The position numbers were made by a program, and so were the translations under genes. A DNA stretch of 38,666 bases. Origin: Parabacteroides sp. GTDB taxonomy: Bacteria > Bacteroidota > Bacteroidia > Bacteroidales > Tannerellaceae. Every line of letters begins with the position of its first letter. The first letter of the stretch is position 1. The DNA lies in the NCBI GenBank assembly GCA_017937385.1, contig JAGBDR010000060.1:1-38666 (forward strand). Reading direction: 5' to 3'. Positions 7,281 through 35,328 of the stretch are shown here, one piece after another. The notes beneath the pieces are model-generated. The model did not search any database. It saw nothing but the letters and a program-made list of their open reading frames with translations, and was not told the origin of the DNA.

Positions 7281-7368
7281 CAATTGACAATGGAAAATTG
7301 ACAATTGACAATTTAATGTTTTACGAAACTATATTAATTGTCAATTGTCAATTATCAATTGTCAATTC
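7281..7368. repeat. Two facing AATTGACAATT repeat units between convergent genes
   Basis: A plus-oriented unit follows the acyltransferase stop, and a minus-oriented unit spans the 3' end of leuB. Their cores, 7296-7313 and 7336-7353, are perfect 18-bp complements (AATTGACAATTGACAATT), giving a hairpin with a 22-base loop that may end transcription from both sides. The leuB stop codon (TGA, 7362-7364) lies inside the unit. Related copies are at 15216-15248 and 33208-33239. Confidence 0.8.
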
Positions 7369-8423
7369 TTCTCTATGTATTCCACAATCCACGCACCAAC
7401 CTCTTTCGTGCCATATTTTGCACCACCTTCCACCTGGATTTCAGGAGTACGGACATGGGCATCCAAAGAAGCATCCACAGCCTTGCGGATCAAGGCGCCT
7501 TCCTCCTGGCAACCGAAATGCTCGAACAACATGGCAACCGAAAGGATCTGTGCCAACGGATTGGCTATATTCAAACCTTTCGCTTGCGGCCATGAACCAT
7601 GAATCGGTTCGAATACGGGTGTGCTTTCGCCCGTCGAGGCAGAAGGAAGCAAGCCCATGGAACCGCTGATACAAGAACCTTCGTCAGTGAGGATGTCACC
7701 AAACGTATTCTCCGTTACCATGACATCAAAGAATTTGGGTTCCTGAATCATGCGCATGGCAGCATTGTCAACATACATATAGTCGGTCTGAACCTCCGGA
7801 TAAGAAGGTGCCATCTCTTGTGCGATCTGGCGCCACAGGCGCGAAGAGGCCAGGACATTCGCTTTGTCGACCACCGTCAGATGTTTTTTCCGTTTCATGG
7901 CATATTCAAAGCCGACCTTCAAGATACGTTCGATCTCAGGGCGCGTATACAGGTTTGTATCGTAGGCCTTGTCATTATCCTGATATTTCTCCCCGAAATA
8001 CATACCTCCTGTCAGTTCACGGATACACAGAAAATCCGCGCCATCCACCAAGTCGGCACGAAGCGGCGATTTGTGCAACAAGCACTTAAACGTCTGCACA
8101 GGTCGAATATTCGCAAACAGACCCAGTTTCTTACGCATAGCTAACAGTCCCTGTTCAGGACGTACTTTGGCCGTCGGATCGTTGTCAAACTTCGGATCAC
8201 CTACGGCAGAGAAAAGAACCGCATCCGCTTCTTTACAAATCTTATATGTCTCTTCCGGGAAAGGATCACCCACCTTATCGATGGCATCAGCTCCGCAAAG
8301 AGCATATTCGTAATGGACCTCATGTCCGAATTTCTTACAAACGGCACTCATCACATCCACACCTTGTGCGGAGATTTCAGGACCGATCCCGTCACCGGGA
8401 AGTACAGCGATATTCAATTTCAT
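7362..8423 (-). CDS. leuB: 3-isopropylmalate dehydrogenase
   Basis: LeuB is a cytoplasmic NAD-dependent enzyme that oxidises 3-isopropylmalate to 2-oxoisocaproate in leucine synthesis; in the citramalate route the same enzyme handles 3-methylmalate. The 353 residues are full length for the family. The start [10 protein letters not shown], the substrate loop ([12 protein letters not shown]), the metal-binding segment with acidic residues ([22 protein letters not shown]) and the NAD-binding FEPIHGSWP are all visible. It is the last gene of the leu operon, about 30 bases after the citramalate-synthase-like gene. The last residue and the stop come from the AATTGACAATT repeat. Confidence 0.96.
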
Positions 8424-8453
8424 GATTTATGATTTTTGATTTATGATTTATCT
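8424..8453. repeat. GATTTATGATTT repeat unit between leuB and the upstream gene
   Basis: The plus strand reads GATTTATG, then ATTTTTGATTTATG, then ATTTATC. The same AT-rich motif recurs at 9964-10004, 10851-10938 and 13876-13905, always at junctions of the leu operon. Confidence 0.65.
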
Positions 8454-8454
8454 T

Positions 8455-9963
8455 TTACCCTTCTATCTTGTTTAACATCTTCAACGTCGCTTTAATGGCC
8501 GCTTCCGTCTGGTCTGCATCGAGTCCACGAGTTTTAAAGTCTACTCCAGCATAATTCCAACTGATGATGGTTTGCACGAAAGCATCGGTCCGTCCGCCAG
8601 GAGGGATGGAAACAGAGTAGTTGGTCAACATCGGGAAAGGACGGCCCAGATCGGTATAGATTTTCCGCAAAGCACGTACGAAAGCATCATACTGCCCGTC
8701 GCCGGAAGCCGACTCCTGATAGGCCTCACCGTTGATTTCAATCTTCAAGGTAGCGACAGGTTTCAGGCCCTGTGCCAAAGACAACGAATAATTCAGGATG
8801 CGGATACGCTGATCTGCCATCGCATCATGATGGAGCACATCGCTGATGATATACGGAAGATCTTCTGTCGTAACCATCTCCTTTTTATCACCCAATTCGA
8901 TGATCCGTTCGGTCACCTTACGCATGGACTCTTCGTCAATATCGATCCCCAACGCCTCCAGGTTCTTACGGATATTCGCTTTACCGGAAGTCTTGCCCAA
9001 GGCATATTCGCGGACACGGCCGAAACGTTCGGGCAGCAAGTCGTTGCAATACAGATTATTTTTGCTATCTCCATCGGCATGGACACCGGCACATTGCGTA
9101 AAGACATGTTCTCCGATAATCGGCTTATTAGGCGGAATATGAACACCGGAGAACGTTTCCACCAAACGACTGGCATAATTGATCCGCTCCTCTTTAAGCG
9201 TCGTCTCCACCCCCAACTGATCTTTCAACACAGCAAGCACACTACTGAGCGGGGCATTCCCGGCACGTTCACCCAATCCGTTCAACGTGGTATGAAGCCC
9301 TCCTATGCCGGCCCGAACAGCCGAGTAGACATTCGCTACCGCCAGATCATAATCGTTATGGGCATGAAAATCAAACTTCAGGTCCGGATAGCGGGTAACC
9401 ATTTCCCGACAATATTCATACGTATTGCCCGGATTCAGGACGCCAAGCGTATCAGGCAGCATAAAACGCTGGATCGGCAGGTCACGAAGCGAATCGATGA
9501 ACTGAAAAACATATTCAGGCGAGTTCTTGATACCGTTCGACCAGTCTTCCAGATAGACGTTCACAGCGATTCCCCGTTCCGTTGCCCGGTTGATAACAGA
9601 ACGTATATCGGAAAAATGCTGTTCGGGAGTCTTGCGAAGTTGCTCTGTCACGTGCTTGTAAGAACCTTTACAAAGCAAGTTGACCACACGGCAGCCGGCC
9701 GCTTCGATCCAGTTCAACGATACCTCACCATCCACAAAGCCCAGTACTTCGAGCTTCCGGATGTTTCCAGTACGTTCCGCCCAGGAAGCCACACGCTTCA
9801 CAGCCTCAAACTCACCGTCCGAGACACGCGCAGAAGCGATCTCCAAACGGTTCACACCCAAGTCGAGCAATGCCTGTGCAATACTCAACTTCTCATGCGC
9901 CGCAAAAGAGACCCCCGAAGTCTGTTCCCCGTCACGCAGGGTGGTATCCATTATTTCTATCAT
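8455..9963 (-). CDS. cimA: Isopropylmalate-synthase-family enzyme, probable (R)-citramalate synthase
   Basis: This is a Claisen-type condensing enzyme of the LeuA/CimA/homocitrate synthase family, 502 residues. The catalytic barrel shows [12 protein letters not shown] near residue 6, the metal-binding HAHNDYDLAVAN and GLGERAGNAPLSS. A C-terminal regulatory-type domain of about 120 residues (VATLKIEINGE, SASGDGQYDAF) follows. A genuine leuA starts the same operon, so this is a paralog. Citramalate synthase (pyruvate plus acetyl-CoA, towards isoleucine) is the best inference: no threonine deaminase gene is seen, leuBCD can serve both routes, and the operon leader has Ile codons. A second isopropylmalate synthase or homocitrate-like enzyme remains possible. 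I chose the ATG at 9963; the open frame extends to 10083, but only through repeat sequence. Confidence 0.8.
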   Translation of the reverse strand: MIEIMDTTLRDGEQTSGVSFAAHEKLSIAQALLDLGVNRLEIASARVSDGEFEAVKRVASWAERTGNIRKLEVLGFVDGEVSLNWIEAAGCRVVNLLCKGSYKHVTEQLRKTPEQHFSDIRSVINRATERGIAVNVYLEDWSNGIKNSPEYVFQFIDSLRDLPIQRFMLPDTLGVLNPGNTYEYCREMVTRYPDLKFDFHAHNDYDLAVANVYSAVRAGIGGLHTTLNGLGERAGNAPLSSVLAVLKDQLGVETTLKEERINYASRLVETFSGVHIPPNKPIIGEHVFTQCAGVHADGDSKNNLYCNDLLPERFGRVREYALGKTSGKANIRKNLEALGIDIDEESMRKVTERIIELGDKKEMVTTEDLPYIISDVLHHDAMADQRIRILNYSLSLAQGLKPVATLKIEINGEAYQESASGDGQYDAFVRALRKIYTDLGRPFPMLTNYSVSIPPGGRTDAFVQTIISWNYAGVDFKTRGLDADQTEAAIKATLKMLNKIEG

Positions 9964-10011
9964 GTACGATTTCTGATTTATGATTTCAAATTTATGATTT
10001 ATGATGACACT

Positions 10012-10234
10012 GTGTCGAAAAGCGCTGTTGGCGCTTCGCATAATAGCCCGGGGTTTCAACCCCGGGAAGTTATGTTCCCTCACTCCTTAGCATCCTGTAA
10101 GGATGCTGCTATACGTAAATAACTTATATTCATTGCTGTACCCTTACAGGGTACAAACTTGTCGGAAAGGATGCACCTCCCCCAGGTTGAAACCTGGGGC
10201 TATTATGCAAGGCACCTACAGTGCCTTTCGACAC
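10012..10234. repeat. Mirror-symmetric module of six hairpins (BIME-like)
   Basis: The outer arms GTGTCGAAA (10012-10020) and TTTCGACAC (10226-10234) frame six hairpins arranged symmetrically: 10021-10035, 10047-10066 (CCCGGGGTT stem), 10089-10107, 10138-10154, 10180-10199 (CCCCAGGTT stem) and 10209-10227. Between them GCATAATAGC (10038-10047) mirrors GCTATTATGC (10199-10208). Loops also mirror each other: TC with GA, and TGTAA with TTACA. The whole sits between leuD and the citramalate-synthase-like gene. It resembles the REP/BIME arrangements of other bacteria; no transposase gene is nearby. Confidence 0.85.
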
Positions 10235-10248
10235 ACCTCCTTCATAAA

Positions 10249-10839
10249 TCATAAAACCCTTTTTTCGTATGCCTCAATCTTATCCTTATTCGACAAGAGA
10301 TAGTCGATATCGTCAAGGCCATTCACCAGACAATCCTTTTTATAGGCATTGATGTCGAAATGCTCGCTCTTGCCCGTAGCCTTATTCGTGATGGTCTGGG
10401 CGGGCAGGTTGACTTCGACTTCCGTTTTCGGATCCGCAAAAATCGAATCGAAAAGCTCGGCCAGGAACGATTCGCTGACAACGACCGGAAGGACAAAATT
10501 ATTCAGTTCGTTGTTCTTATGGATGTCAGCAAAGAAGCTACTGACTACTACGCGAAAGCCATAGTCGGCAATCGCCCAAGCTGCATGTTCGCGACTGGAA
10601 CCCGAACCGAAGTTCTTTCCTGCCACCAATATCTGACCGCCGTAGGTCGGATCGTTCAGGACAAACGATTCTATCTTGTTGCCCTGTTTGTCATACCGCC
10701 AGTCGCGGAACAGGTTTTCACCGAATCCCTTCTTGTCGGTTGCTTTCAAGAAGCGAGCGGGAATGATCTGGTCCGTGTCCACATTCTCAAGAGGAAGAGG
10801 GACGCAGGTTGATGTGATGATATTGAATTTCTGTTTCAT
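10249..10839 (-). CDS. leuD: 3-isopropylmalate dehydratase, small subunit
   Basis: LeuD carries the swivelling domain that completes the active site of LeuC for the isomerisation of 2- to 3-isopropylmalate, and of citramalate to 3-methylmalate in the isoleucine route. The 196 residues include [12 protein letters not shown] near residue 20 and the conserved [16 protein letters not shown] around residues 73-88, the hallmark of the family. It follows leuC after 90 bases filled with a long palindromic repeat, and is followed by the six-hairpin module. The last residues run up to the repeat edge. Confidence 0.96.
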
Positions 10840-10874
10840 GAATGTTGAGAATTATGATTTCAAATTGATGATTT

Positions 10875-10938
10875 GATTTATGATTTCAGATTTATGATTT
10901 ATGCATCGAAATAAATCATAAATCTGAAATCATAAATC
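10875..10938. repeat. 28-bp perfect inverted repeat at the leuC-leuD junction
   Basis: The arms 10875-10902 and 10911-10938 are perfectly complementary over 28 bases, with the 8-base loop GCATCGAA. They are built from GATTTATGATT units. The right arm contains the leuC stop codon (10930-10932) and its last two codons. In RNA this is a very strong stem between two genes of one operon; no T-run follows, so it is more likely an mRNA-stability or processing structure than a terminator. Confidence 0.85.
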
Positions 10939-12330
10939 CTTAAGCTCTCTCGGATCTGTGATCACCCCCGTCACGGCAGCGGCAGCAGCCACTAACGGTC
11001 CGGCCAGAATCGTACGGGCACCCGGTCCCTGACGGCCCTCAAAGTTACGGTTGCTTGTCGAAACGGCATACTTTCCTGCCGGGATCTTATCGTCATTCAT
11101 AGCCAGACAAGCCGAACATCCCGGTTGACGCAACTGGAAACCGGCTTCTTCAAAGATCTTGTCCAAACCCTCTTCACGGATCTGCGCATCCACCATCCAA
11201 GAGCCGGGTACCAACCAGGCAACCACATGATCCGCCTTTTTCCGTCCCTTTACGATAGAGGCGAACGCACGGAAATCTTCGATACGACCATTGGTGCAGG
11301 AACCCAAGAAAACATAATCGATCTTCTTGCCCAACAAAGACTCGCCCGGCTGAAAGCCCATATATTCCATCGATTTCAGAAAAGAGTTTTTCTCTACATC
11401 GCTCATTCCCTCGACAGTCAGGATATGCCCGGTAACGCCCATCCCCATACCAGGATTGGTTCCATACGTCACCATCGGTTCAATATCGGCAGCGTCAAAC
11501 AGGATTTCTTTGTCAAACACGGCATCCTCACCGCTCTGCAACGTCTTCCAATAGGCAACAGCCTTGTCCCAATCTTCACCGGTCGGAGCGTTCTCACGGC
11601 CTTTGAGATAAGCAAACGTCGTCTCGTCGGGAGCAATCATACCGCCACGTGCCCCCATTTCGATAGACAGGTTGCACAAAGTCAGGCGTCCTTCCATCGT
11701 CAGGCTGCGGATCGCCGAGCCGGCATACTCGATGAAATATCCGGTAGCACCACTGGTCGTCACCTTCGACATGATATAAAGGGCAACATCCTTTGCCGTC
11801 ACGCCCTTTCCAAGATTTCCTTCCACACGGATACGCATGGTTTTCGGCTTTGCTTGCAAAATGCACTGGGAAGCCATCACCATTTCCACTTCGCTGGTTC
11901 CGATACCGAAAGCGACAGCCCCAACCGCCCCGTGGGTAGAAGTATGCGAGTCACCGCAAACGATTGTCATCCCCGGCAAAGTCAGTGCGCGTTCCGGACC
12001 GACCACATGGATAATGCCGTTACGTTCATCCATCATCCCATAATGAGTCAAACCGAATTCGGCGGCATTCTTCGCCAACGTATCGACCTGTTTTTTCGAA
12101 ACAGGGTCCTCGATCGGCTTATCCTGATCGTGCGTCGGCGTGTTATGGTCCGGCATACAATAGATCCGTTCCGGGCGAAGCGGTTTCAACCCCCGTGCAC
12201 GCATACCGGCAAAGGCCTGCGGGCTGGTTACTTCGTGGCAGTACAACCTGTCGATGTAAAGCTGTGTAGGTCCCTCTTCTATGATCGTCACCACGTGAGA
12301 GTCCCAAATCTTGTCAAATAATGTATTCAT
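10930..12330 (-). CDS. leuC: 3-isopropylmalate dehydratase, large subunit
   Basis: LeuC is the aconitase-family subunit that holds the catalytic [4Fe-4S] cluster and, with LeuD, interconverts 2- and 3-isopropylmalate. It is 466 residues, the usual length. Cluster cysteines are visible in [13 protein letters not shown] (near residue 345) and [10 protein letters not shown] (near residue 408). Substrate-binding segments include [15 protein letters not shown] and the N-terminal [11 protein letters not shown]. It starts 10 bases after leuA, so the two are tightly coupled in the operon. The final Asp-Leu and the stop are read from the GATTTATGATT repeat arm. Confidence 0.97.
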
Positions 12331-12340
12331 AATCGTCTAT

Positions 12341-13837
12341 TCATTTTACAAATTTATTAATCGCATCGATAAACGCCTCCACAGAAGCAGCTATAATATC
12401 GGTATTGGCAGCAAAACCGTAATACCGGTTTCCTTCGTGCTCAACCTGCATGTGGACCTTACCCATGTCGTCACTGCCTTTATTGATTGCCTGGATCAGG
12501 AATTCCTGGATCGTCATCGTACGGTGGATAATGGATTTCACCGCCTTAATCGCAGCATCGACAGGGCCGTTTCCGGAAGCGGCCGCCTCGAACTTCTCGC
12601 CTGCGATATCCAAGCAGACACTGGCCACAGACTGCAAACCGACACCGGATGTCACCTGCAAATATTCCAACTTGATGCGGTGCATGGCCGTACGGTCCTT
12701 GCCGGCAAGCATCAGGACATCGTCGTCATTGATATCTTTCTTGCGATCGGCAAGTTTCAGAAATTCTTCATACACCTTATCCAGTTTTTCCTGAGACAGT
12801 TCGACACCCAATATCTGCAAACGGTGCTTCAATGCCGCACGCCCGCTACGGGCCGTCAATACGATTGCGTTATCGTCGATTCCGACATCTTTCGGATCGA
12901 TGATTTCATAGCTTTCACGGTTCTTCAAAACACCGTCCTGATGGATACCGGAAGAATGGGCGAACGCGTTGCGCCCGACAATCGCCTTGTTCGGTTGGAT
13001 CGGCATATTCATCAGGCTGGACACCATACGGCTGACTCCGTAGATCTTCGTCGTATTGATATTGGTGATGATCTCCCGTTCCTTGTGGCTTTTGAAAATC
13101 ATTGCGATTTCTTCCAAAGAGGTATTACCGGCACGTTCGCCGATACCATTCATGGTCACTTCCACCTGGCGGGCACCGTTCAAGACGCCCTGCACCGTGT
13201 TGGCAGTAGCCATTCCCAAATCGTTATGGCAGTGGGTGGAAAGGATTGCTTTCCCGACACCCTCCACGTGTTCCATCAGATATTTGATTTTCGCTCCATA
13301 TTCGTCCGGCAAGCAATAACCGGTCGTATCGGGGATATTGACCACTGTCGCCCCGGCCTTGATGACCGCTTCCACCACACGTGCCAGATATTCGTTGTCC
13401 GTACGTCCGGCATCCTCGCAATAGAACTCGACGTCTTCCACATACCGCTTCGCATATCGGGTAGCGGCGACAGCCCGTTCCAAAATATCTTCCCGGTTGG
13501 AGTTGAACTTATACTTGATATGATAGTCTGACGTTCCGATACCCGTATGGATACGTCCGCGTTTCGCATACTTCAAGGCTTCAGCCGCCACATCGATGTC
13601 TTTTTCCACCGCACGGGTAAGCGCACAGATTGTAGGCCATGTTACGGCCTTCGATATTTCAACGACACTATTGAAATCGCCCGGGCTCGACACCGGGAAA
13701 CCGGCTTCAATCACGTCTACCCCCAGTTCCTCCAGCGCCTTGGCTACCTGAATCTTTTCAATACTGTTCAACTGGCAACCCGGCACCTGCTCGCCATCTC
13801 GTAAGGTTGTGTCGAAAATAAATAATCTGTCTGACAT
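12341..13837 (-). CDS. leuA: 2-isopropylmalate synthase
   Basis: LeuA makes 2-isopropylmalate from 2-oxoisovalerate and acetyl-CoA, the committed step to leucine. The 498 residues match the bacterial LeuA1 form. The catalytic barrel begins [16 protein letters not shown], and the metal ligands lie in [15 protein letters not shown] and [14 protein letters not shown]. The C-terminal domain with [16 protein letters not shown] is the leucine-binding regulatory region of the family, so feedback inhibition is likely. It is the first structural gene of the operon, 71 bases after the attenuator terminator. Confidence 0.96.
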
Positions 13838-13875: not shown

Positions 13876-13905
13876 ATTTATGATTCATACGCATAGATCA
13901 TAAAT
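13876..13905. repeat. 9-bp hairpin of the GATTTATGATTT family before leuA
   Basis: ATTTATGAT (13876-13884) and ATCATAAAT (13897-13905) are complementary with a 12-base loop. It lies between the attenuator terminator and leuA. Confidence 0.6.
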
Positions 13906-13908
13906 GAC

Positions 13909-13943
13909 AAAAGCCTTTCTCACAAGGAAGTGAGAAAGGCTTT
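13909..13943 (-). terminator. Attenuator terminator of the leu operon
   Basis: On the minus strand AAAGCCTTTCTCAC (13943-13930) and GTGAGAAAGGCTTT (13923-13910) form a 14-bp perfect stem with a 6-base loop, followed by TTTTGTC. It sits between the leader peptide and leuA. Bases 13926-13935 of its 5' arm are complementary to 13976-13985 at the leader stop codon, so an antiterminator of 10 bp can form instead. Confidence 0.9.
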
Positions 13944-13975
13944 CCATATCTTAATGCCCAGCAAAGCATACACAG

Positions 13976-13985
13976 TCTCACTTCC
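13976..13985 (-). promoter_or_regulatory. Antiterminator arm of the leu attenuator
   Basis: The minus strand reads GGAAGTGAGA, an exact complement of TCTCACTTCC in the 5' arm of the terminator. It overlaps the last codons and stop of the leader peptide. A ribosome finishing the leader would cover it and allow termination; a ribosome stalled on upstream Leu or Ile codons would leave it free to block the terminator. Confidence 0.8.
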
Positions 13986-14052
13986 TATCCCGCTTCCAGA
14001 GTAGAATAATAGGTAGAGAAATAATGAGGCTATTTAGCATTTCCTGTTTCAT
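13978..14052 (-). CDS. leuL: Leader peptide of the leu operon (24 residues)
   Basis: The frame starts at ATG (14052) and stops at TGA (13978-13980). It begins MKQEML and ends WKRDRK. Of 24 residues, five are Leu (6, 9, 13, 17, 18) and four are Ile in two adjacent pairs (10-11 and 15-16); none is Val. The control codons precede the stop by 6 to 19 codons, suitable for ribosome stalling. It lies about 30 bases after the predicted transcription start and before the attenuator. Its role is regulatory; the peptide itself is probably not used. The Leu plus Ile composition suits an operon with both leuA and a citramalate synthase. Confidence 0.85.
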   Translation of the reverse strand: MKQEMLNSLIISLPIILLWKRDRK

Positions 14053-28904: not shown

Positions 28905-29948
28905 TCAATTGTTTTCCGGACGCAATTTGCGGACAACTGCGCCGGCACGCCACATTTCGCTTTCGCGCAATGCTGCCAGTTCTTTTTCCAGGCCTTCGCG
29001 ATAATCCGGTTTGCTATTCGTGTCGATCGAACGCTGCGCTTCGTTACCACAAGCAACCTCACGATACAGTTTCTCGAATACAGGCTTAACAGCATCATGG
29101 AACGGGCCCATCCAGTCCAAAGCGCCACGTTGTGCCGTCGTAGAACAGTTGGCATACATCCAGTCCATACCGTTTTCTGCAAACAGCGGCATCAAAGACT
29201 GCGTCAACTCTTCAACCGTTTCATTGAACGCCTCGGAAGGTTCATGGCCATTTTCACGCAAAGTTTCATATTGAGCCAACAACAATCCCTGGATGGCACC
29301 CATCAAGGTACCGCGTTCGCCGGTCAGGTCGGAATATACTTCCTTCTTGAAAGTTGTTTCGAACAGATAGCCGGAACCGACACCGATACCCAAAGCGACC
29401 ACACGGTCCCAAGCCTTGCCGGTTGCATCCTGGAAGATTGCATAGCTGGAGTTCAAGCCACGTCCTTGCAGGAACATACGGCGCAAAGAAGTTCCTGATC
29501 CCTTCGGAGCGATCATGATTACATCGACATCTGCTGGAGGAATGATGTTGGTACGCTCCTTGTAAGTAATAGCAAAACCATGAGAGAAATACAGGGCTTT
29601 GCCCGGAGTCAGGTATTTCTTGATACGCGGCCAGCATTCGATCTGAGCGGCGTCGGAGAGCAACACCTGTATGATAGTCGCCTTTTCGCAAGCTTCTTCG
29701 ATGCCGAACAAAGTTTCACCCGGAACCCAACCGTCGGCAACAGCCTTGTCATACGTCTTACCAGGACGCTGTCCTACAATCACATTAAAACCGTTGTCAC
29801 GCAAATTCAAGCTCTGTCCAGGACCTTGAACGCCGTAACCGATCACTGCGATCACTTCATCTTTCAATACTTCTCTTGCCTTTTCCAACGGAAACTCTTC
29901 GCGGGTTACGACGTTTTCGTCAACACCGCCAAAATTCATTACTGCCAT
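28905..29948 (-). CDS. ilvC: Ketol-acid reductoisomerase, fungal-like type
   Basis: IlvC rearranges and reduces acetolactate and acetohydroxybutyrate to the dihydroxy acids for valine/leucine and isoleucine. The 347 residues have the Rossmann motif GYGVQGPGQSLNLRDNG (residues 38-54), a cofactor loop at VGQRPGK, and the knotted C-terminal domain with the metal ligands in SDLTGERGTLMG and EAFNETVEELTQ. From memory, segments such as GRGLNSSYA, LRENGHEPSEAFNETVEE and the C-terminal KLRPEN are closer to yeast Ilv5 than to the common short bacterial enzyme. It is the last gene of the ilv operon, followed by a terminator, and preceded by a hairpin array. Confidence 0.96.
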   Translation of the reverse strand: MAVMNFGGVDENVVTREEFPLEKAREVLKDEVIAVIGYGVQGPGQSLNLRDNGFNVIVGQRPGKTYDKAVADGWVPGETLFGIEEACEKATIIQVLLSDAAQIECWPRIKKYLTPGKALYFSHGFAITYKERTNIIPPADVDVIMIAPKGSGTSLRRMFLQGRGLNSSYAIFQDATGKAWDRVVALGIGVGSGYLFETTFKKEVYSDLTGERGTLMGAIQGLLLAQYETLRENGHEPSEAFNETVEELTQSLMPLFAENGMDWMYANCSTTAQRGALDWMGPFHDAVKPVFEKLYREVACGNEAQRSIDTNSKPDYREGLEKELAALRESEMWRAGAVVRKLRPENN

Positions 29949-29975
29949 TTTCTTTTACTATTAAATTGTAACGTT

Positions 29976-29999
29976 GGGACGGCTGCAGACCGCCCGTAC
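29976..29999 (-). repeat. GC-rich 24-base hairpin repeat before ilvC
   Basis: On the minus strand it reads GTACGGGCGG, TCTG, CAGCCGTCCC, a near-perfect stem-loop. It has the same length, the same GTA start and the same orientation as the units at 30867-30918 and 35080-35103 in this operon. Confidence 0.7.
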
Positions 30000-30019
30000 T
30001 TAAAAATAATTCTTTGTTT

Positions 30020-30122
30020 GTGCGTCAACCCTAACGCCAACAGTGCGTCAGTTCTAACGCAGATGGTGCGTCAACCCTAACGCAGATGATGCGTTAGCTT
30101 TAACGCCGTCATTACGTCAATG
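30020..30122. repeat. Array of four 23-base hairpin units before ilvC
   Basis: Units run 30020-30042, 30043-30065, 30066-30088 and 30089-30111, with a partial fifth to 30122. On the minus strand each forms a short hairpin: in units 2 and 3 TGCGTTA, a four-base loop, TGACGCA; in unit 4 GCGTTA pairs with TAACGC exactly. Loops vary (GGGT, GAAC, AAGC) while the stem is kept. The partial copy contains the thioesterase stop codon. Confidence 0.85.
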
Positions 30123-30848
30123 CCACGTGGCCGAAGCGCGACAGATGGATTTTCCTTCATGACAAATCGCCATGTCGTATTTTCCGCTGCCGACCTCCTT
30201 TTTATGAAGCTTAAGCTCCATCCCGTACTTGCCTTCCGCTTGGTAGGCGATCTCGAAACGCCCCACTTCCCGGGTCTTGAACAAATCGAGGTCAAACAGG
30301 TCCAGCAAATGTTCCATGTACTTGATGCTGTTCAGGTGGCCATTGATGTCAAGGTCACTATACTTGACAACATACGGAATTCCTTGCGTATCACTTTCCA
30401 CAGCCGCGATCTTCCCCGGCTTTTCGATCGGACAAGGACGGTCGGTGACATAAACACCCAGACCGGCCACATCCAGCAAAGTAGGCCGACGTGTTTCCAC
30501 ATCGATAGCCGCCCAGATGGAGCGGGCATAACCGAACGTCTTGCCTTTGCCGTCTGCCAACTCAAAACAACGGCTGGTAAAGAGGCGGCCGACTTCGTCG
30601 ATCCAGGTATAGAGCGTGATAGGTTCGGACATGACCGGATATTCAAGCATTTCGATCGCCATACGGGAAAGGACCCAAGCCGTGTGCCGTTCCGACATAT
30701 CGCTAAACCCGAACCCACGTTCGGCGGCATGGTGGGACGCGGCGTGTATCAGGTAGTTGCCGATCATCGGGATCGTCACGCGGCCCCGAAAATCCAACAG
30801 GTACGGCTCGGTGGCGAAATGAAATTCTCCTATTTTGCTTTTTTCCAT
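30117..30848 (-). CDS. Acyl-ACP thioesterase
   Basis: The enzyme releases fatty acids from acyl carrier protein. The 243 residues show the double hot-dog fold of the family: first half RVTIPMIGNYLIHAASHHAAERGFG, second half beginning near residue 160. The catalytic segment is SDLDINGHLNSIKYMEHLLD, with the Asn/His pattern of plant FatA/FatB and bacterial homologs. It lies inside the ilv operon, between ilvH and ilvC, an arrangement I know from Bacteroides genomes. Inference: it links branched-chain keto acid supply to release of branched fatty acids. The 2-oxo acid primer enzymes themselves are not in the window. Its stop codon falls in a 23-base repeat. Confidence 0.9.
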   Translation of the reverse strand: MEKSKIGEFHFATEPYLLDFRGRVTIPMIGNYLIHAASHHAAERGFGFSDMSERHTAWVLSRMAIEMLEYPVMSEPITLYTWIDEVGRLFTSRCFELADGKGKTFGYARSIWAAIDVETRRPTLLDVAGLGVYVTDRPCPIEKPGKIAAVESDTQGIPYVVKYSDLDINGHLNSIKYMEHLLDLFDLDLFKTREVGRFEIAYQAEGKYGMELKLHKKEVGSGKYDMAICHEGKSICRASATWH

Positions 30849-30866
30849 GATGCTTTTCAGTTTGTC

Positions 30867-30918
30867 GGGACAGGCAGGCCCTGCCCTTACGATTGGGACA
30901 GGCAGACCCTGTCCTTAC
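30867..30918 (-). repeat. Two GC-rich 24-base hairpin units at the ilvH 3' end
   Basis: The minus strand carries GTAAGGACAGG-GTCTG-CCTGTCCC (30918-30895) and GTAAGGGCAGG-GCCTG-CCTGTCCC (30890-30867), period 28. The first unit overlaps the last codons of ilvH, and the ilvH stop (TAA, 30887-30889) is in the second. Confidence 0.8.
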
Positions 30919-31465
30919 TTTTTTCCTGTAGTTTGCGTTCCATTTCGGCCAACATGTCGCTCAAGCGTTCAACGCGGCTCTTGGTGATCGCGACACGGCC
31001 GGAACGAATGAACTGCAAGACACCGATCGTTTCGCTCAATTCTTTGAACAAGGCTTGTGTCTCGTCGTAATGGCCGCTCTTTTCCAAGACTACACAGGTT
31101 TCGTTTATCTCTAGAATACGGGCATTATACTTACGGATCAGATCTTCGACCGCACCCATCTTGATGAACAGGTCGGTACTCAGTTTGTAAAGTGCGATTT
31201 CCTGATATACAAGATCTTCATCCGTATTGTAATACGCTTTCAGGATATCCACCCGTTTGTCAATCTGTTTCACGACCTTGTCGATCGTATCCTCATCGGC
31301 GAATGTCGTGATCGTAAACTTATGTATGCCCTGTATGGCGGATGGTGAAACAGAAAGCGTCTCGATGTTCAACTGCCGGCGCGTAAAGATAATCGTAATC
31401 TGATTCAGAAGACCGACTGTATTCTCTGAAAAGATAATAACGGTATATAATTTCTTTGTTGTCAT
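30887..31465 (-). CDS. ilvH: Acetolactate synthase, small regulatory subunit
   Basis: IlvH/IlvN activates the catalytic subunit and confers valine feedback inhibition. The 192 residues open with an ACT domain (LYTVIIFSENTVGLLNQITIIFTRR), with the conserved Asn-x-x-Gly-Leu-Leu seen here as ENTVGLL. A second ACT-like domain begins near residue 85 (EIALYKLSTD). The last seven residues (RVCLSQS) and the stop codon are read through the GC-rich hairpin repeat, so the C-terminus was probably altered by repeat insertion. It starts 12 bases after ilvB. Confidence 0.93.
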   Translation of the reverse strand: MTTKKLYTVIIFSENTVGLLNQITIIFTRRQLNIETLSVSPSAIQGIHKFTITTFADEDTIDKVVKQIDKRVDILKAYYNTDEDLVYQEIALYKLSTDLFIKMGAVEDLIRKYNARILEINETCVVLEKSGHYDETQALFKELSETIGVLQFIRSGRVAITKSRVERLSDMLAEMERKLQEKSKDRVCLSQS

Positions 31466-31477
31466 AACTTCACCTCC

Positions 31478-33178
31478 TTACTTATCTCCCAATATCATAT
31501 TCGTTACGCTTCCTCCGGCAGGAACCATCGGATAAACCATGCCACAGGGTTCCACATTGGCAACCAACACATACGCACCGTCATGATTCAGCATTTCGGC
31601 AATCGCTCCATCCAGCTCTTCCCGCTTTTCCACCGTGCGGCCGGCAATGCCGTATGCTTTCGCAATCGCCACGAAATCGGGATTCTCCATAATCGTGTTC
31701 GAATATCGTTCATGGAAAAACAATTCCTGCCACTGGCGTACCATTCCTAAGAAATTGTTATTAAGGATAATGATTTTCACATCCAGTTTCTCTTGCATGA
31801 TCGTTCCGAGCTCCTGAATCGTCATCTGCATGCCACCGTCGCCGGTAAAGAAACAGACCGTGCGGTCAGGTGCGCCGAACTTGGCGCCCATAGCGGCCGG
31901 AAGGCCAAAGCCCATCGTCCCCAGTCCGCCCGAAGTAACGACACTACGCGTACGCTTATATTTGAAATAGCGGACACCCATCATCTGGTTTTGTCCGACA
32001 TCCGTCACCAGGACAGCATCGTTGCCGGTTGCTTCGGATACTTTCCGAACGACTTCACCCATTTTCAGCGGACCGCTCGCCGGAGACAATTCCTTTTCGA
32101 TCACCTTTTCATACTCTTCCTGCGCATCCGGCTCGAACTCCGCATTCCACTCCGGACGCTTCCGTTCTTCCAACAATGCCGTTATCATCGGAATCGTATG
32201 TTTGGCATTTCCAAGTACCTTTACATCGACCGGCACATTTTTCCCGATCTCCGAATTGTCGATATCCAGATGGATCACTTTTGCCTGCTTGGCGTATGTC
32301 TTCAAATCGCCTGTAACACGATCATCGAAACGCATACCGATGGCGATCAGGACATCGCACTCATTGGTTTTCCGGTTTGGTCCGATATTGCCATGCATAC
32401 CCAGCATACCTTTATTCAAAGGAAAATCGGACGGCAATGCCGACAAACCGAGAACAGTAGAGCCGGCAGGAATATCATTCTTCAACAGGAATGCCTTCAA
32501 CTCTTCTTCTGCACCTCCCAACAGGACCCCTTGTCCGACCAAACAAAACGGCTTCTCCGCTTTATTGATCAAAGCAGCGGCAGCCTTGATCCGGTCTGGG
32601 TTGATATCCGGTTCCGGCTGGTAGCTGCGGACGTAATCCACTTTCTTATATTCGAAATCAACCAACCCGACCTGGGCATCCTTTGCCAAATCAAGGACAA
32701 CAGGACCCGGACGTCCGGTAGATGCAATGTAAAAGGCACGTGAAACAGCCCATGCAATCTCTTCCGGCTTACGAATCTGGTACGCCCATTTGGTGATCGG
32801 CTGTGTGATACCGATCACATCGACTTCTTGAAAAGCATCGGTTCCAAGCAATGGAGAAGGAACCTGACCGGCAATGACCACCATGGGCGTACTATCCATC
32901 AGGGCATCCGCTATGCCGGTGATGGTATTCGTCGCGCCTGGACCGGATGTGACCAACGTCACCCCTACTTTGCCGGATACGCGAGCATACCCTTGTGCAG
33001 CATGCGTCGCCCCTTGCTCATGACGTACCAAAACATGTTTCAATTGATCTCTGTAATCATACAGGCTGTCGTAAATGGGAATCGCCTGTCCGCCGGGATA
33101 GCCAAAGATCGTATCTACGCCTTCAGCTATCAACGACTTCAATAACGCTTCCGAACCCGTTATCTTTTGTTTCTCCAT
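31478..33178 (-). CDS. ilvB: Acetolactate synthase, large catalytic subunit
   Basis: IlvB is a thiamine diphosphate and FAD enzyme that makes acetolactate (valine, leucine) and acetohydroxybutyrate (isoleucine). The 566 residues are typical. The catalytic Glu lies in HEQGATHAAQGYAR near residue 54. The middle domain begins near residue 190. The thiamine-binding segment GDGGMQMTIQELGTIMQ to NNNFLGMVRQWQ is near residue 450. TSGPGATNTITGIADA is the usual N-terminal signature. It sits 48 bases after ilvD, the gap being an AATTGACAATT repeat and a short AT-rich stretch, and directly upstream of its regulatory subunit. Confidence 0.97.
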   Translation of the reverse strand: MEKQKITGSEALLKSLIAEGVDTIFGYPGGQAIPIYDSLYDYRDQLKHVLVRHEQGATHAAQGYARVSGKVGVTLVTSGPGATNTITGIADALMDSTPMVVIAGQVPSPLLGTDAFQEVDVIGITQPITKWAYQIRKPEEIAWAVSRAFYIASTGRPGPVVLDLAKDAQVGLVDFEYKKVDYVRSYQPEPDINPDRIKAAAALINKAEKPFCLVGQGVLLGGAEEELKAFLLKNDIPAGSTVLGLSALPSDFPLNKGMLGMHGNIGPNRKTNECDVLIAIGMRFDDRVTGDLKTYAKQAKVIHLDIDNSEIGKNVPVDVKVLGNAKHTIPMITALLEERKRPEWNAEFEPDAQEEYEKVIEKELSPASGPLKMGEVVRKVSEATGNDAVLVTDVGQNQMMGVRYFKYKRTRSVVTSGGLGTMGFGLPAAMGAKFGAPDRTVCFFTGDGGMQMTIQELGTIMQEKLDVKIIILNNNFLGMVRQWQELFFHERYSNTIMENPDFVAIAKAYGIAGRTVEKREELDGAIAEMLNHDGAYVLVANVEPCGMVYPMVPAGGSVTNMILGDK

Positions 33179-33207: not shown

Positions 33208-33239
33208 AATTGTCAATTGTCAATTATTAATTGTCAATT
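33208..33239 (-). repeat. AATTGACAATT repeat unit at the ilvD 3' end
   Basis: On the minus strand the unit begins within the last three ilvD codons, and its first TAA (33227-33229) is the ilvD stop. Confidence 0.8.
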
Positions 33240-35065
33240 ATCCTCACTCCTCCTTTATCGGCCGAACTAACCATCTTGCCATAAGCCCTCAAAGCCTTTG
33301 AGACGACACGTTGGCGATGAGGAGGCGTAAAGGCCTTCGCGCCGCGGGCCTCTTCCGCTTTACGGCGTTCTGCCAATTCGGCATCGCTTACCTTCACATG
33401 AATCGTACGTTCGGGAATATTGATCTCGATGATGTCGCCGTCTTTCACCAGACCGATCGCTCCGCCTGCCGCAGCTTCGGGAGAGATATGGCCGATAGAA
33501 AGCCCGGAAGTACCGCCACTGAAACGGCCGTCCGTAATCAGCGCACATTCCTTGCCTAAATGACGGCTCTTTATATAAGAGGTAGGATAAAGCATTTCCT
33601 GCATACCGGGACCGCCCTTCGGCCCTTCGTGTGTAATCACAACCACATCGCCCGAGACCACTTTTCCACCGAGGATGCCCTCGCAAGCCGCATCCTGCGA
33701 ATCGAATACTTTGGCAGGACCAGCAAACGTCCAGATACTTTCATCCACACCGGCCGTCTTGACCACACAACCATCCAGCGCGATATTACCTTTGAGGACA
33801 GCCAGACCGCCATCTTTGGAGTAAGCATGTTCGATATCGCGGATACATCCGGCAGCACGGTCGGTATCCAGTTCCTTATAATAGGTTTCCTGCGATCCCA
33901 TCTGAATACTGAAACGGCAGGCAGGAGCACTCTTGTATTTCTTGATGGCTTCGTCCGTCACATTCGGAGAGGTGATCGCAAAGGCATCGACCGCTTCGGC
34001 AAGCGTCATGCCATCCACACGCTTTACATTACCATCGACCAAGCCACCTTTCAACAGTTCGTTCATAATCCCCATGATGCCACCGGCCCGGTTCACATCC
34101 TGGACATGATACGTATGTGTGTTGGGAGCGACCTTGCAAAGGCAGGGAGTCTTGCGGGAAAGCATATCGATATCATCCATCGTGAAGTCCGCCTCCGCCT
34201 CCTGTGCGATCGCAAGCAAATGGAGAACGGTATTCGTAGAACCGCCCATTGCGATATCCAACGACATGGCATTCAGGAAAGCCTGGCGAGTGGCGATGCT
34301 GCGGGGAAGAACCGACTCATCGCCATCCCGATAGTATTTATAAGCATTTTCTACGATCTGCCGGGCTGCATCGCGGAACAATTGTGTACGGTTGGCATGT
34401 GTGGCGACAATCGTTCCGTTACCCGGCAAAGCCAGACCGATCGCTTCATTCAGGCAGTTCATCGAATTGGCCGTAAACATACCGGAGCAACAACCACATC
34501 CCGGGCAGGCATTCCGTTCGACCTGTGCGATCCGTTCATCACCGACCGACGTATCAGCCGATTCGATCATCGCATCGATCAAATCCAAATGCCGATTATC
34601 CAATTCGCCGGCTTCCATCGGACCACCGGAAACAAAGATCGTCGGGATATTGAGCCGCATGGATGCCATCAACATCCCCGGCGTGATCTTGTCGCAATTG
34701 CTGATGCAGACCATCGCATCCGCTTTGTGGGCATTGACCATATATTCGACGCTATCCGCAATAATATCACGTGAAGGGAGCGAATAAAGCATCCCGTCGT
34801 GCCCCATTGCAATGCCGTCGTCAATCGCGATCGTATTGAACTCGGCCGCGAAGCAACCCAACTTTTCAATCTCCGCTTTTACAAGCTGTCCTGCCTCATG
34901 CAAATGCACATGGCCAGGGACAAACTGGGTAAATGAATTCACAATGGCTATAATCGGTTTGCCGAACTGCTCTTCCTTCATGCCGTTGGCGCGCCACAAA
35001 GCACGGGCTCCAGCCATGCGTCTGCCCTCTGTGCTGTATGAACTTCTTAACGGATTCTTCATCAT
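33227..35065 (-). CDS. ilvD: Dihydroxy-acid dehydratase
   Basis: IlvD dehydrates the dihydroxy acids to 2-oxoisovalerate and 2-oxo-3-methylvalerate. It binds an iron-sulfur cluster; the cysteines are visible in [12 protein letters not shown] (near residue 124) and [21 protein letters not shown]-type spacing near 195. The lysine-containing segment and [14 protein letters not shown] near residue 517 are also conserved. The 612 residues match the E. coli-type form. It is the first structural gene of the ilv operon, 61 bases after the attenuator; a GC-rich hairpin lies in that gap. The second Met (codon 2) could also be the start. Confidence 0.97.
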
Positions 35066-35079
35066 ATTATCTGTTATTT

Positions 35080-35103
35080 GGGGCGGCTCGTGAACCGCCT
35101 TTA
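35080..35103 (-). repeat. GC-rich 24-base hairpin repeat in the ilvD leader
   Basis: On the minus strand AGGCGGTTC, ACG, AGCCGCCCC form a stem-loop related to those at 29976-29999 and 30867-30918. It lies between the attenuator terminator and ilvD. Confidence 0.65.
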
Positions 35104-35125
35104 TACATTATATTATATACATATC

Positions 35126-35157
35126 AAAAAAGCCTTTCCCGATAAGGAGAAAGGCTT
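35126..35157 (-). terminator. Attenuator terminator of the ilv operon
   Basis: On the minus strand AAGCCTTTC (35157-35149), one bulged T, CC, a 5-base loop, GG and GAAAGGCTT (35138-35130) form an 11-bp stem followed by a T-run. Bases 35143-35154 are exactly complementary to 35197-35208 at the leader stop codon, so a 12-bp antiterminator competes with it. Confidence 0.9.
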
Positions 35158-35196
35158 AAGAAATATCTTCAATACGATTTCACAACTTCTTACACA

Positions 35197-35208
35197 CCTT
35201 TCTCCTTA
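35197..35208 (-). promoter_or_regulatory. Antiterminator arm of the ilv attenuator
   Basis: The minus strand reads TAAGGAGAAAGG; its first three bases are the leader stop codon. It is a perfect complement of CCTTTCTCCTTA in the terminator 5' side. It can also pair weakly (TCCTT with AAGGA) with Leu codons in the leader (35224-35228), which could act as the pause or anti-antiterminator hairpin. Confidence 0.8.
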
Positions 35209-35265
35209 CCTACTAATGACTAGAAGGACCACCACGAGAATAATATGCAATACGTTGTTCATCAT
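35206..35265 (-). CDS. ilvL: Leader peptide of the ilv operon (19 residues)
   Basis: The frame runs from ATG (35265) to TAA (35206-35208). The sequence is MMNNVLHIILVVVLLVISR. Twelve of 19 residues are branched-chain: five Val (including three in a row), four Leu and three Ile (two adjacent). It lies about 30 bases after the predicted start of transcription and before overlapping antiterminator and terminator. It is therefore a control peptide for transcription attenuation by charged Val, Leu and Ile tRNA. The three amino acids match the operon, whose enzymes (IlvBH, IlvC, IlvD) serve all three. Confidence 0.88.
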   Translation of the reverse strand: MMNNVLHIILVVVLLVISR

Positions 35266-35297
35266 CTTTCCAATGTCTCTATTCTTGTTTGACGCTG

Positions 35298-35328
35298 CAA
35301 ATGTAGAACAATAATTCATACAAGCAAA
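35298..35328 (-). promoter_or_regulatory. Promoter of the ilv operon
   Basis: On the minus strand TTTG (35328-35325), 19 bases, then TACATTTG (35305-35298) is an exact match to the Bacteroidetes consensus TTTG-N19-TAnnTTTG. It lies 32 bases before the leader ATG. Confidence 0.88.

Follow-up and report, generated by a model that had tools for sequence, protein, structure and literature searches.

A conserved, probable leader-peptide attenuator before the ilv operon of a Parabacteroides genome

The ilv operon in the Parabacteroides DNA analysed here (the window, a stretch of 38,666 nt) is preceded by a short reading frame crowded with valine, leucine and isoleucine codons and then by an intrinsic terminator. 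Does this arrangement form a switch that reads the supply of the three branched-chain amino acids, and is it kept in related genomes? The reading we favour, with a probability of roughly 0.92, is that the region is a ribosome-mediated transcription attenuator sensing charged Val, Leu and Ile tRNAs and controlling the ilv operon. Its anatomy, its conservation, the covariation and exclusivity of both helices and the stall-position geometry were observed by computation. The whole control region lies on the minus strand and runs from promoter through leader, antiterminator strand and terminator to ilvD-ilvB-ilvN-thioesterase-ilvC, as follows.

35325..35328, minus strand: promoter -33 element TTTG, of Bacteroidetes type (from the enrichment of TAnnTTTG with a -33 TTG)
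35298..35305, minus strand: promoter -7 element TACATTTG (TAnnTTTG), 19 nt from the -33 element and ending 32 nt before the leader ATG
35288..35294, minus strand: expected transcription start region, placed from the -7 element
35206..35265, minus strand: leader peptide reading frame, MMNNVLHIILVVVLLVISR and stop, 19 aa of which 12 are V/L/I; a V/L/I-rich leader recurs in relatives
35236..35250, minus strand: leader segment that, in the full-length fold, pairs with the antiterminator strand and the adjoining downstream bases; possible anti-antiterminator
35196..35210, minus strand: antiterminator 5' strand GGTAAGGAGAAAGGT, which includes the leader stop TAA (35208..35206); from duplex, swap test and covariation
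35141..35155, minus strand: shared strand GCCTTTCTCCTTATC, partner of the antiterminator strand or (5' part) of the terminator 3' arm; from covariation of both helices
35126..35157, minus strand: intrinsic terminator AAGCCTTTCTCCTTATCGGGAAAGGCTT, with a stem of 11 pairs (35157..35130), then a U run to 35126
33227..35065, minus strand: ilvD, dihydroxy-acid dehydratase, first structural gene (NF009103, 1074.6 bits, cut-off 710)
28905..33178, minus strand: ilvB, ilvN, acyl-ACP thioesterase and ilvC, the rest of a probable single operon, judged from order and strand

The mechanism proposed for this region is as follows. When Val, Leu and Ile tRNAs are all plentiful, a ribosome at the leader stop would cover the antiterminator strand of 12-15 nt; with that strand covered the terminator would form, and transcription would end near 35126. 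A shortage of any one of the three would stall the ribosome within codons 5-16 and leave the antiterminator strand free. The free strand would then capture the shared strand before the terminator 3' arm exists, and polymerase would continue into ilvD. The start of transcription, translation of the leader, stalling and the amino acid response are the parts of this explanation that we infer.

The elements TTTG and TAnnTTTG, which we take to be the -33 and -7 consensus of Bacteroidetes-type promoters, recur before the leaders of related loci. Of 67 leaders, 56 have TAnnTTTG at a distance of 12-70 nt upstream of their start, against 5.8% of shuffles; together with a -33 TTG it is found in 54 of the 67 and in 0.8% of shuffles. 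The 67 are those of 70 positive loci, defined below, that have at least 95 nt upstream. The consensus promoter of the original prediction is borne out by these counts and by the two elements themselves (TTTG at 35328..35325, TACATTTG at 35305..35298), and its leader of 19 residues with 12 branched-chain residues is right in both coordinates and counts. A further in-frame ATG upstream of the leader falls between the -33 and -7 elements, and MMNN is therefore taken as the leader start. Downstream, the acyl-ACP thioesterase gene occupies 30117-30848 on the minus strand, between ilvN and ilvC. A hairpin-forming sequence, GGCGGTTCACGAGCCGCC (35082-35099, minus strand), lies between terminator and ilvD and is missing in some relatives, e.g. 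L097 and L085.

The 12-nt TAAGGAGAAAGG (35208..35197), which begins with the leader stop codon (35208..35206), is the exact reverse complement of CCTTTCTCCTTA within the terminator, as had been claimed for a 12-bp antiterminator; the helix in fact reaches 15 pairs, two of them G-U (35210..35196 with 35155..35141). Between 34900 and 35500 there is a single terminator-like site, where 0.2 are expected. The arms GAGAAAGG and CCTTTCTC (8 nt each, 20-50 nt apart) occur together at a single place in the 3.7-Mb genome, a count that by itself is no excess since a control pattern matched 2 + 2 times.

Conservation was assessed by a mechanical test for a terminator of -9 kcal/mol or lower, an antiterminator duplex of -11 kcal/mol or lower and a V/L/I-rich reading frame ending there. 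Its thresholds were fixed after a laxer first pass, which had accepted 76 of 110 rows including evident chance rows such as L035 and was replaced. The stricter test is passed upstream of 70 of 110 related ilvD genes: all 30 from a genome search (41 genomes, 33 with an ilvD match, the best 30 of the 33 fetched) and 40 of the 80 from a contig search (the best 80 of 589 contig matches). Among ilvD upstream regions of at least 300 nt, 68 of 102 pass, against 13 of 4080 dinucleotide shuffles of the same regions. When loci were selected on leader and terminator alone, all 63 so chosen also passed the antiterminator test. The 40 failing loci include Prevotella-named genomes, Desulfobulbaceae, Spirochaetes and contigs cut near the gene. 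Thirteen of them (L028, L031-L038, L040, L042, L043, L045), with record titles mostly of Prevotella, Prevotellaceae or Bacteroidaceae, failed within up to 600 nt of upstream sequence (about 195 nt in L033), which suggests that the attenuator has been lost there or that control is of another kind.

Each of the two helices covaries. Over 55 distinct terminator strands, the duplex of a terminator with its own antiterminator averages -17.6 kcal/mol and that with a swapped one -13.6, and none of 10000 permutations was as good; for 22 diverged strands the values are -16.4 and -11.6 kcal/mol, again with 0/10000. In an unguided MAFFT alignment (A1) that represents each distinct strand once, 62 of the 70 positives in all, the antiterminator helix pairs in 87.1% of cells, with a covariation score of 0.275 against 0.174 when shuffled and at most 0.145 when slid. 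This score and the number of two-sided cells exceed all 500 shuffles, which keep the relatedness of the sequences in. The number of antiterminator pairs with two-sided change (5/10) is not above the shuffles, as 221 of the 500 reach it. The terminator pairs in 95.2% of cells, with changes on both sides in eight of nine pairs. The claim of an ilv attenuator with mutually exclusive antiterminator and terminator is supported by the swaps and by covariation in both helices.

The window holds a second control region of this kind, before the leu operon.

14052..13978, minus strand: leu leader, MKQEMLNSLIISLPIILLWKRDRK and stop
13986..13976, minus strand: leu antiterminator AGGAAGTGAGA
13943..13908, minus strand: leu terminator, the whole leu attenuator spanning 13908..14052
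7362..13837, minus strand: leu operon, leuA, leuC, leuD, a cimA-like gene (its best match, below the NCBIfam cut-off) and leuB

The compact logic was said to be common to both regions. Leu leaders do pass the same test, at 23 of 30 leuA loci (the best 30 from 34 genomes with a match), but the helix core of the window's leu leader begins 6 nt before the stop, and the ilv leader RNA shows a third pairing (below). With 18 distinct leu strands the own duplex averages -18.8 kcal/mol and the swapped -17.7 (19/10000 permutations as good). The content of the leader follows the operon, as predicted: Val accounts on average for 40% of the V/L/I residues in 30 ilv leaders and for 3% in 23 leu leaders, and, given the cimA-like gene, Leu and Ile without Val match the products expected of the leu operon.

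The two regions were also proposed to be related. An RNA model trained on ilv loci (R1) has two hits in the window's genome: one at ilv (E 3.4e-15), which was among its training sequences, and one at leu (13905-14022; E 7.0e-6), which was not. These E-values are rough. The ilv and leu terminators of one genome are no more alike than those of different genomes (16 pairs; 6006/20000 permutations as good), so the two regions may be homologous or may have evolved in parallel. A recent shared origin of the two regions within one genome is unsupported by this permutation test.

Stall geometry was computed on the assumption that the ribosome covers 12 nt beyond the A-site codon, a figure given in a passage of PMC4833913. 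On this footprint the window's ilv leader behaves as expected, a ribosome at the stop covering the antiterminator strand and a stalled ribosome freeing it. Stalls at codons 3-16 bring the terminator probability to 0.00-0.04, ribosome positions from codon 17 to the stop give 0.88, and the RNA with no ribosome gives 0.93. Nine V/L/I stalls leave the antiterminator strand free, and for these, with the 3' arm unmade, the antiterminator probability is 0.90-0.99; its value of 0.00 at the stop is built into the calculation, which treats the strand as covered there. Among homologues at equilibrium the terminator has a mean probability of 0.68 when the ribosome is stalled and 0.97 when it is at the stop; 55 of 61 ilv leaders and 15 of 18 leu leaders have the higher value at the stop. 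A rise from below 0.3 to above 0.7 was taken as a clear equilibrium switch. It is shown by 13 of 61 ilv leaders and by none of 18 leu leaders, and in the leu leader of the window the value is 0.999 whatever the state; these counts do not support a simple equilibrium switch for all homologues. With the 3' arm unmade and the ribosome stalled, the antiterminator averages 0.94 over 62 ilv leaders, 61 of which reach 0.5 or more, and 0.96 over 18 leu leaders, all of which do. Weak switching at equilibrium combined with a strong antiterminator before the 3' arm makes kinetic capture of the shared strand the likely mechanism, as in the general model of ribosome-mediated attenuation; where a homologue's terminator prevails even with the ribosome stalled, any switching would have to be kinetic.

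A third pairing complicates this scheme. In the full-length fold, a helix between leader coding sequence and the antiterminator strand stands beside the terminator. The mean probability of this pairing is 0.741, against 0.630 when synonymous codons are reordered within leaders (n = 60; Wilcoxon p 1.7e-10 without correction for relatedness) and 0.611 when leaders are swapped between species. Taken leader by leader, the synonymous-order test gives p of 0.05 or below in 9 of 60 and of 0.5 or above in 8 of 60, with 0.12 for the window. The pairing suggests a protector (1:2) helix that would keep termination as the untranslated state, and the compact two-helix logic may to that extent be incomplete. 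Before the 3' arm is made and with no ribosome, the antiterminator outcompetes the leader pairing in the window (0.99), which would mean read-through without translation and counts against the proposed mechanism; under these conditions 45 of 62 ilv leaders and 10 of 18 leu leaders have the antiterminator at 0.5 or higher.

The same anatomy could serve a different sensor, in which ribosome release or coupling at the stop codon is decisive and the attenuator reads general translation in place of stalling at Val, Leu or Ile codons. What speaks for it is the position of the stop, which in 52 of 70 ilv loci begins within the helix core or no more than 6 nt ahead of it. In 17 of the 70, however, the stop lies beyond the core (in one further locus it lies further before), while the V/L/I run holds its distance: the last V/L/I codon ends a median of 9 nt before the core with a standard deviation of 3.5 nt, against 10.0 nt for the stop, the 3.5 being partly small by construction, as the V/L/I run is dense. 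We consider this sensor of general translation very unlikely. The 17 exceptions also make stop overlap a frequent layout and not a rule. In the genome's own trp and his leaders, too, the best pairing is not a stop-overlapping helix; overlap as a general defining rule was rejected on both grounds.

Stalling at branched-chain codons, which we prefer, would also fit the codon usage. Of the Leu codons in 14 same-genus leaders (L081-L102), 23% are CTA, against 1% in their ilvD genes; in the other 48 leaders, among which L105 is also same-genus, the figures are 24% and 3%. ATT and GTC are likewise enriched in leaders. Rare codons suit a stall sensor, and the needs of base pairing could contribute to the choice of codon. 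This usage bears in turn on the proposal that the short reading frame encodes a working small hydrophobic protein, with a terminator that ends the transcript or sets a basal level and no amino acid switch at all. The peptide is indeed hydrophobic, and MMNNVLHIILVVVLLVISR is identical in L083, L084, L087-L090, L097, L099 and L100. Outside the genus, however, it is mainly the V/L/I run that is kept, with V, L and I interchanged and lengths of 14 to 32 (L081 and L082 set aside, as their listed frames extend back into the promoter). The covariation of the helix at the stop codon, the enrichment of rare CTA codons and a Val share that tracks the operon product likewise stand against a small protein, which we regard as highly improbable. 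A leader bound by protein or tRNA (a T-box or other riboswitch) that controls the terminator, with the reading frame incidental, would suit the stable fold of the complete 166-nt leader RNA, better than all 200 shuffles (z -4.3), but is barely credible: the V/L/I frame recurs together with the terminator, and no Rfam family matches at gathering score, the best lax match being PyrR (25.6 bits, gathering 54, E 0.13), so that a T-box or catalogued riboswitch was rejected.

How far does the attenuator reach beyond the window? R1 has matches in 100 of 247 genomes sampled from the window's order, representing 74 of 165 genera, and in 68 of 296 sampled from its phylum. The window genome is counted in both tallies, and five more of the 100 gave training loci (L104, L106, L108-L110); the genome of another training locus, L107 (G032), was missed in the order-wide search. 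From the order, 46 hits in 40 stretches were picked by hand with preference for second or third hits and close pairs, and so not at random. Forty of the 46 have ilvD, ilvB or leuA downstream. The other six precede gltB (two), hisG (one), an agmatine-deiminase-like gene (one) and two unidentified places; for L190, L193 and L196 (agmatine-deiminase-like gene downstream) no explanation was found. Upstream of gltB, the glutamate synthase gene, L186 and L202 have short Lys/His-rich reading frames with antiterminator and terminator.

Six of the 40 stretches have two R1 hits in series before one gene, ilvD in L178, L179, L181 and L182 and ilvB in L180 and L183. Both units have their own terminator and antiterminator in five of the six; in L179 the scan detected no second terminator. 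No ATG leader was found for the first unit of L182, which is at a contig start. A second V/L/I-rich reading frame lies further upstream in L060, L071 and L077.

From the phylum, 25 hits in 20 picked stretches were inspected. In 13 of the 20 ilvD lies downstream within the stretch, at more than 700 nt and with another gene first in seven of them (L218, L224, L225, L227, L231, L232, L234). L219, L220 and L221 have paired units, with weaker antiterminators (-8.1 to -12.4 kcal/mol), before a small-subunit acetolactate-synthase-like gene, a call that is below the NCBIfam cut-off in L219, rests on a tblastn match of 34% in L221 and was made by eye in L220, which resembles L219. In L218 ilvE is preceded by three units. 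The first has a weak antiterminator (-9.3) and an Ile-rich leader that would use TTG as its start; the other two have nearly identical Ile-rich leaders, with antiterminators of -18.8 and -20.4. The hit at L236 is a leader of Trp type ahead of trpE; for L222, L223 and L228 among the 25 hits no explanation was found. A wider reading would place the window's switch in an uncatalogued, Bacteroidota-wide superfamily of leader-peptide attenuators with a common CCTTTCTC-type strand, stacked two or three deep in some lineages so that their amino-acid readings multiply into a steeper gate. It would span ilvD, ilvB, ilvN-like, ilvE and leuA genes, with look-alikes before gltB, hisG and trpE; we hold it tentatively and rate it somewhat short of an even chance.

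Such results would add branched-chain operons to the catalogued trp leader as cases of leader-peptide attenuation in Bacteroidota. They tie the codon content of the leader to the product of the operon, Val/Leu/Ile for ilv and Leu/Ile for leu-cimA, and the many natural variants, serial units included, offer material for learning what stalling site, stop position and helix strength each contribute to an attenuator.

Among known systems, the attenuators of E. coli ilvGMEDA (ilvL) and leu (leuL) have leaders rich in branched-chain residues and exclusive antiterminator and terminator helices, and the leu leader uses rare Leu CUA codons. They belong to another phylum, whereas the window has a Bacteroidetes-type promoter and a stop codon inside the antiterminator strand.

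Nearer at hand is the Bacteroid-trp leader RNA, RF01692, listed in PMC2864571. The trp leader of the window's own genome, MRTSIVNTYWWWRSLQLIRS before trpB (L146:1268-1399, C113), belongs to it at 88.9 bits (gathering 49). It too is a leader-peptide element of an amino acid operon in Bacteroidetes, in the same genome, but it is a Trp leader, and the ilv and leu elements fall below the RF01692 gathering score; at that score the window ilv region, L081 and L111 gave no match, and the leu and his loci match nothing in Rfam. The his leader, MKFIALHFHHHHHNGQSFGGLCGM before hisG (L142, C117), is followed by a strong terminator and has no Rfam match at gathering score. A candidate Thr-containing leader, MTLTGFTYHTWALMMTPWGV, precedes an aspartokinase-type gene with an 844-aa frame (L143, C3), with no clear terminator.

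According to a passage of Naville and Gautheret (2010; PMC2965389), no leader-peptide system was known outside Proteobacteria and Actinobacteria before their own Firmicutes case. A transcriptome of B. thetaiotaomicron has short reading frames in 5' UTRs reminiscent of leader peptides, with ilv unnamed in the sections at hand (PMC7366714). Our literature search, which mostly took in freely available papers and not subscription ones, turned up no account of a leader peptide for ilv or leu in Bacteroidetes; Lopatovskaya (2010), cited in PMC4833913, may contain such a prediction. Anatomy alone is not proof of attenuation, since similar ilvB and leuA leaders of Streptomyces coelicolor failed codon-mutation tests, as excerpts of PMC1262725 report.

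The closest tested analogue among the literature examined, some of it in excerpt, is the ilvBNC attenuator of C. glutamicum, whose leader MTIIRLVVVTARRLP has Ile, Val and Leu codons and for which codon and start-codon mutants are reported in parts of PMC11857589. By the same parts, it is alike in having terminator, antiterminator and anti-antiterminator; it differs in that its first gene is ilvB, its transcript begins a single nucleotide from the leader's start codon and its hairpins overlap otherwise. For units in series, which are the more unusual part and are found in relatives, outside the window, the parallel is the tandem attenuators of Salmonella mgtCBR, with two leader reading frames in series before one operon that sense ATP and proline (sections of PMC3641672). 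Going by those sections, the mgtCBR units sense different signals, whereas the relatives' units described here are both V/L/I-rich where a leader was found. Set against these systems, the window's ilv element is real and conserved and, judged from sequence, very probably a functional leader-peptide attenuator, uncatalogued and of a known kind.
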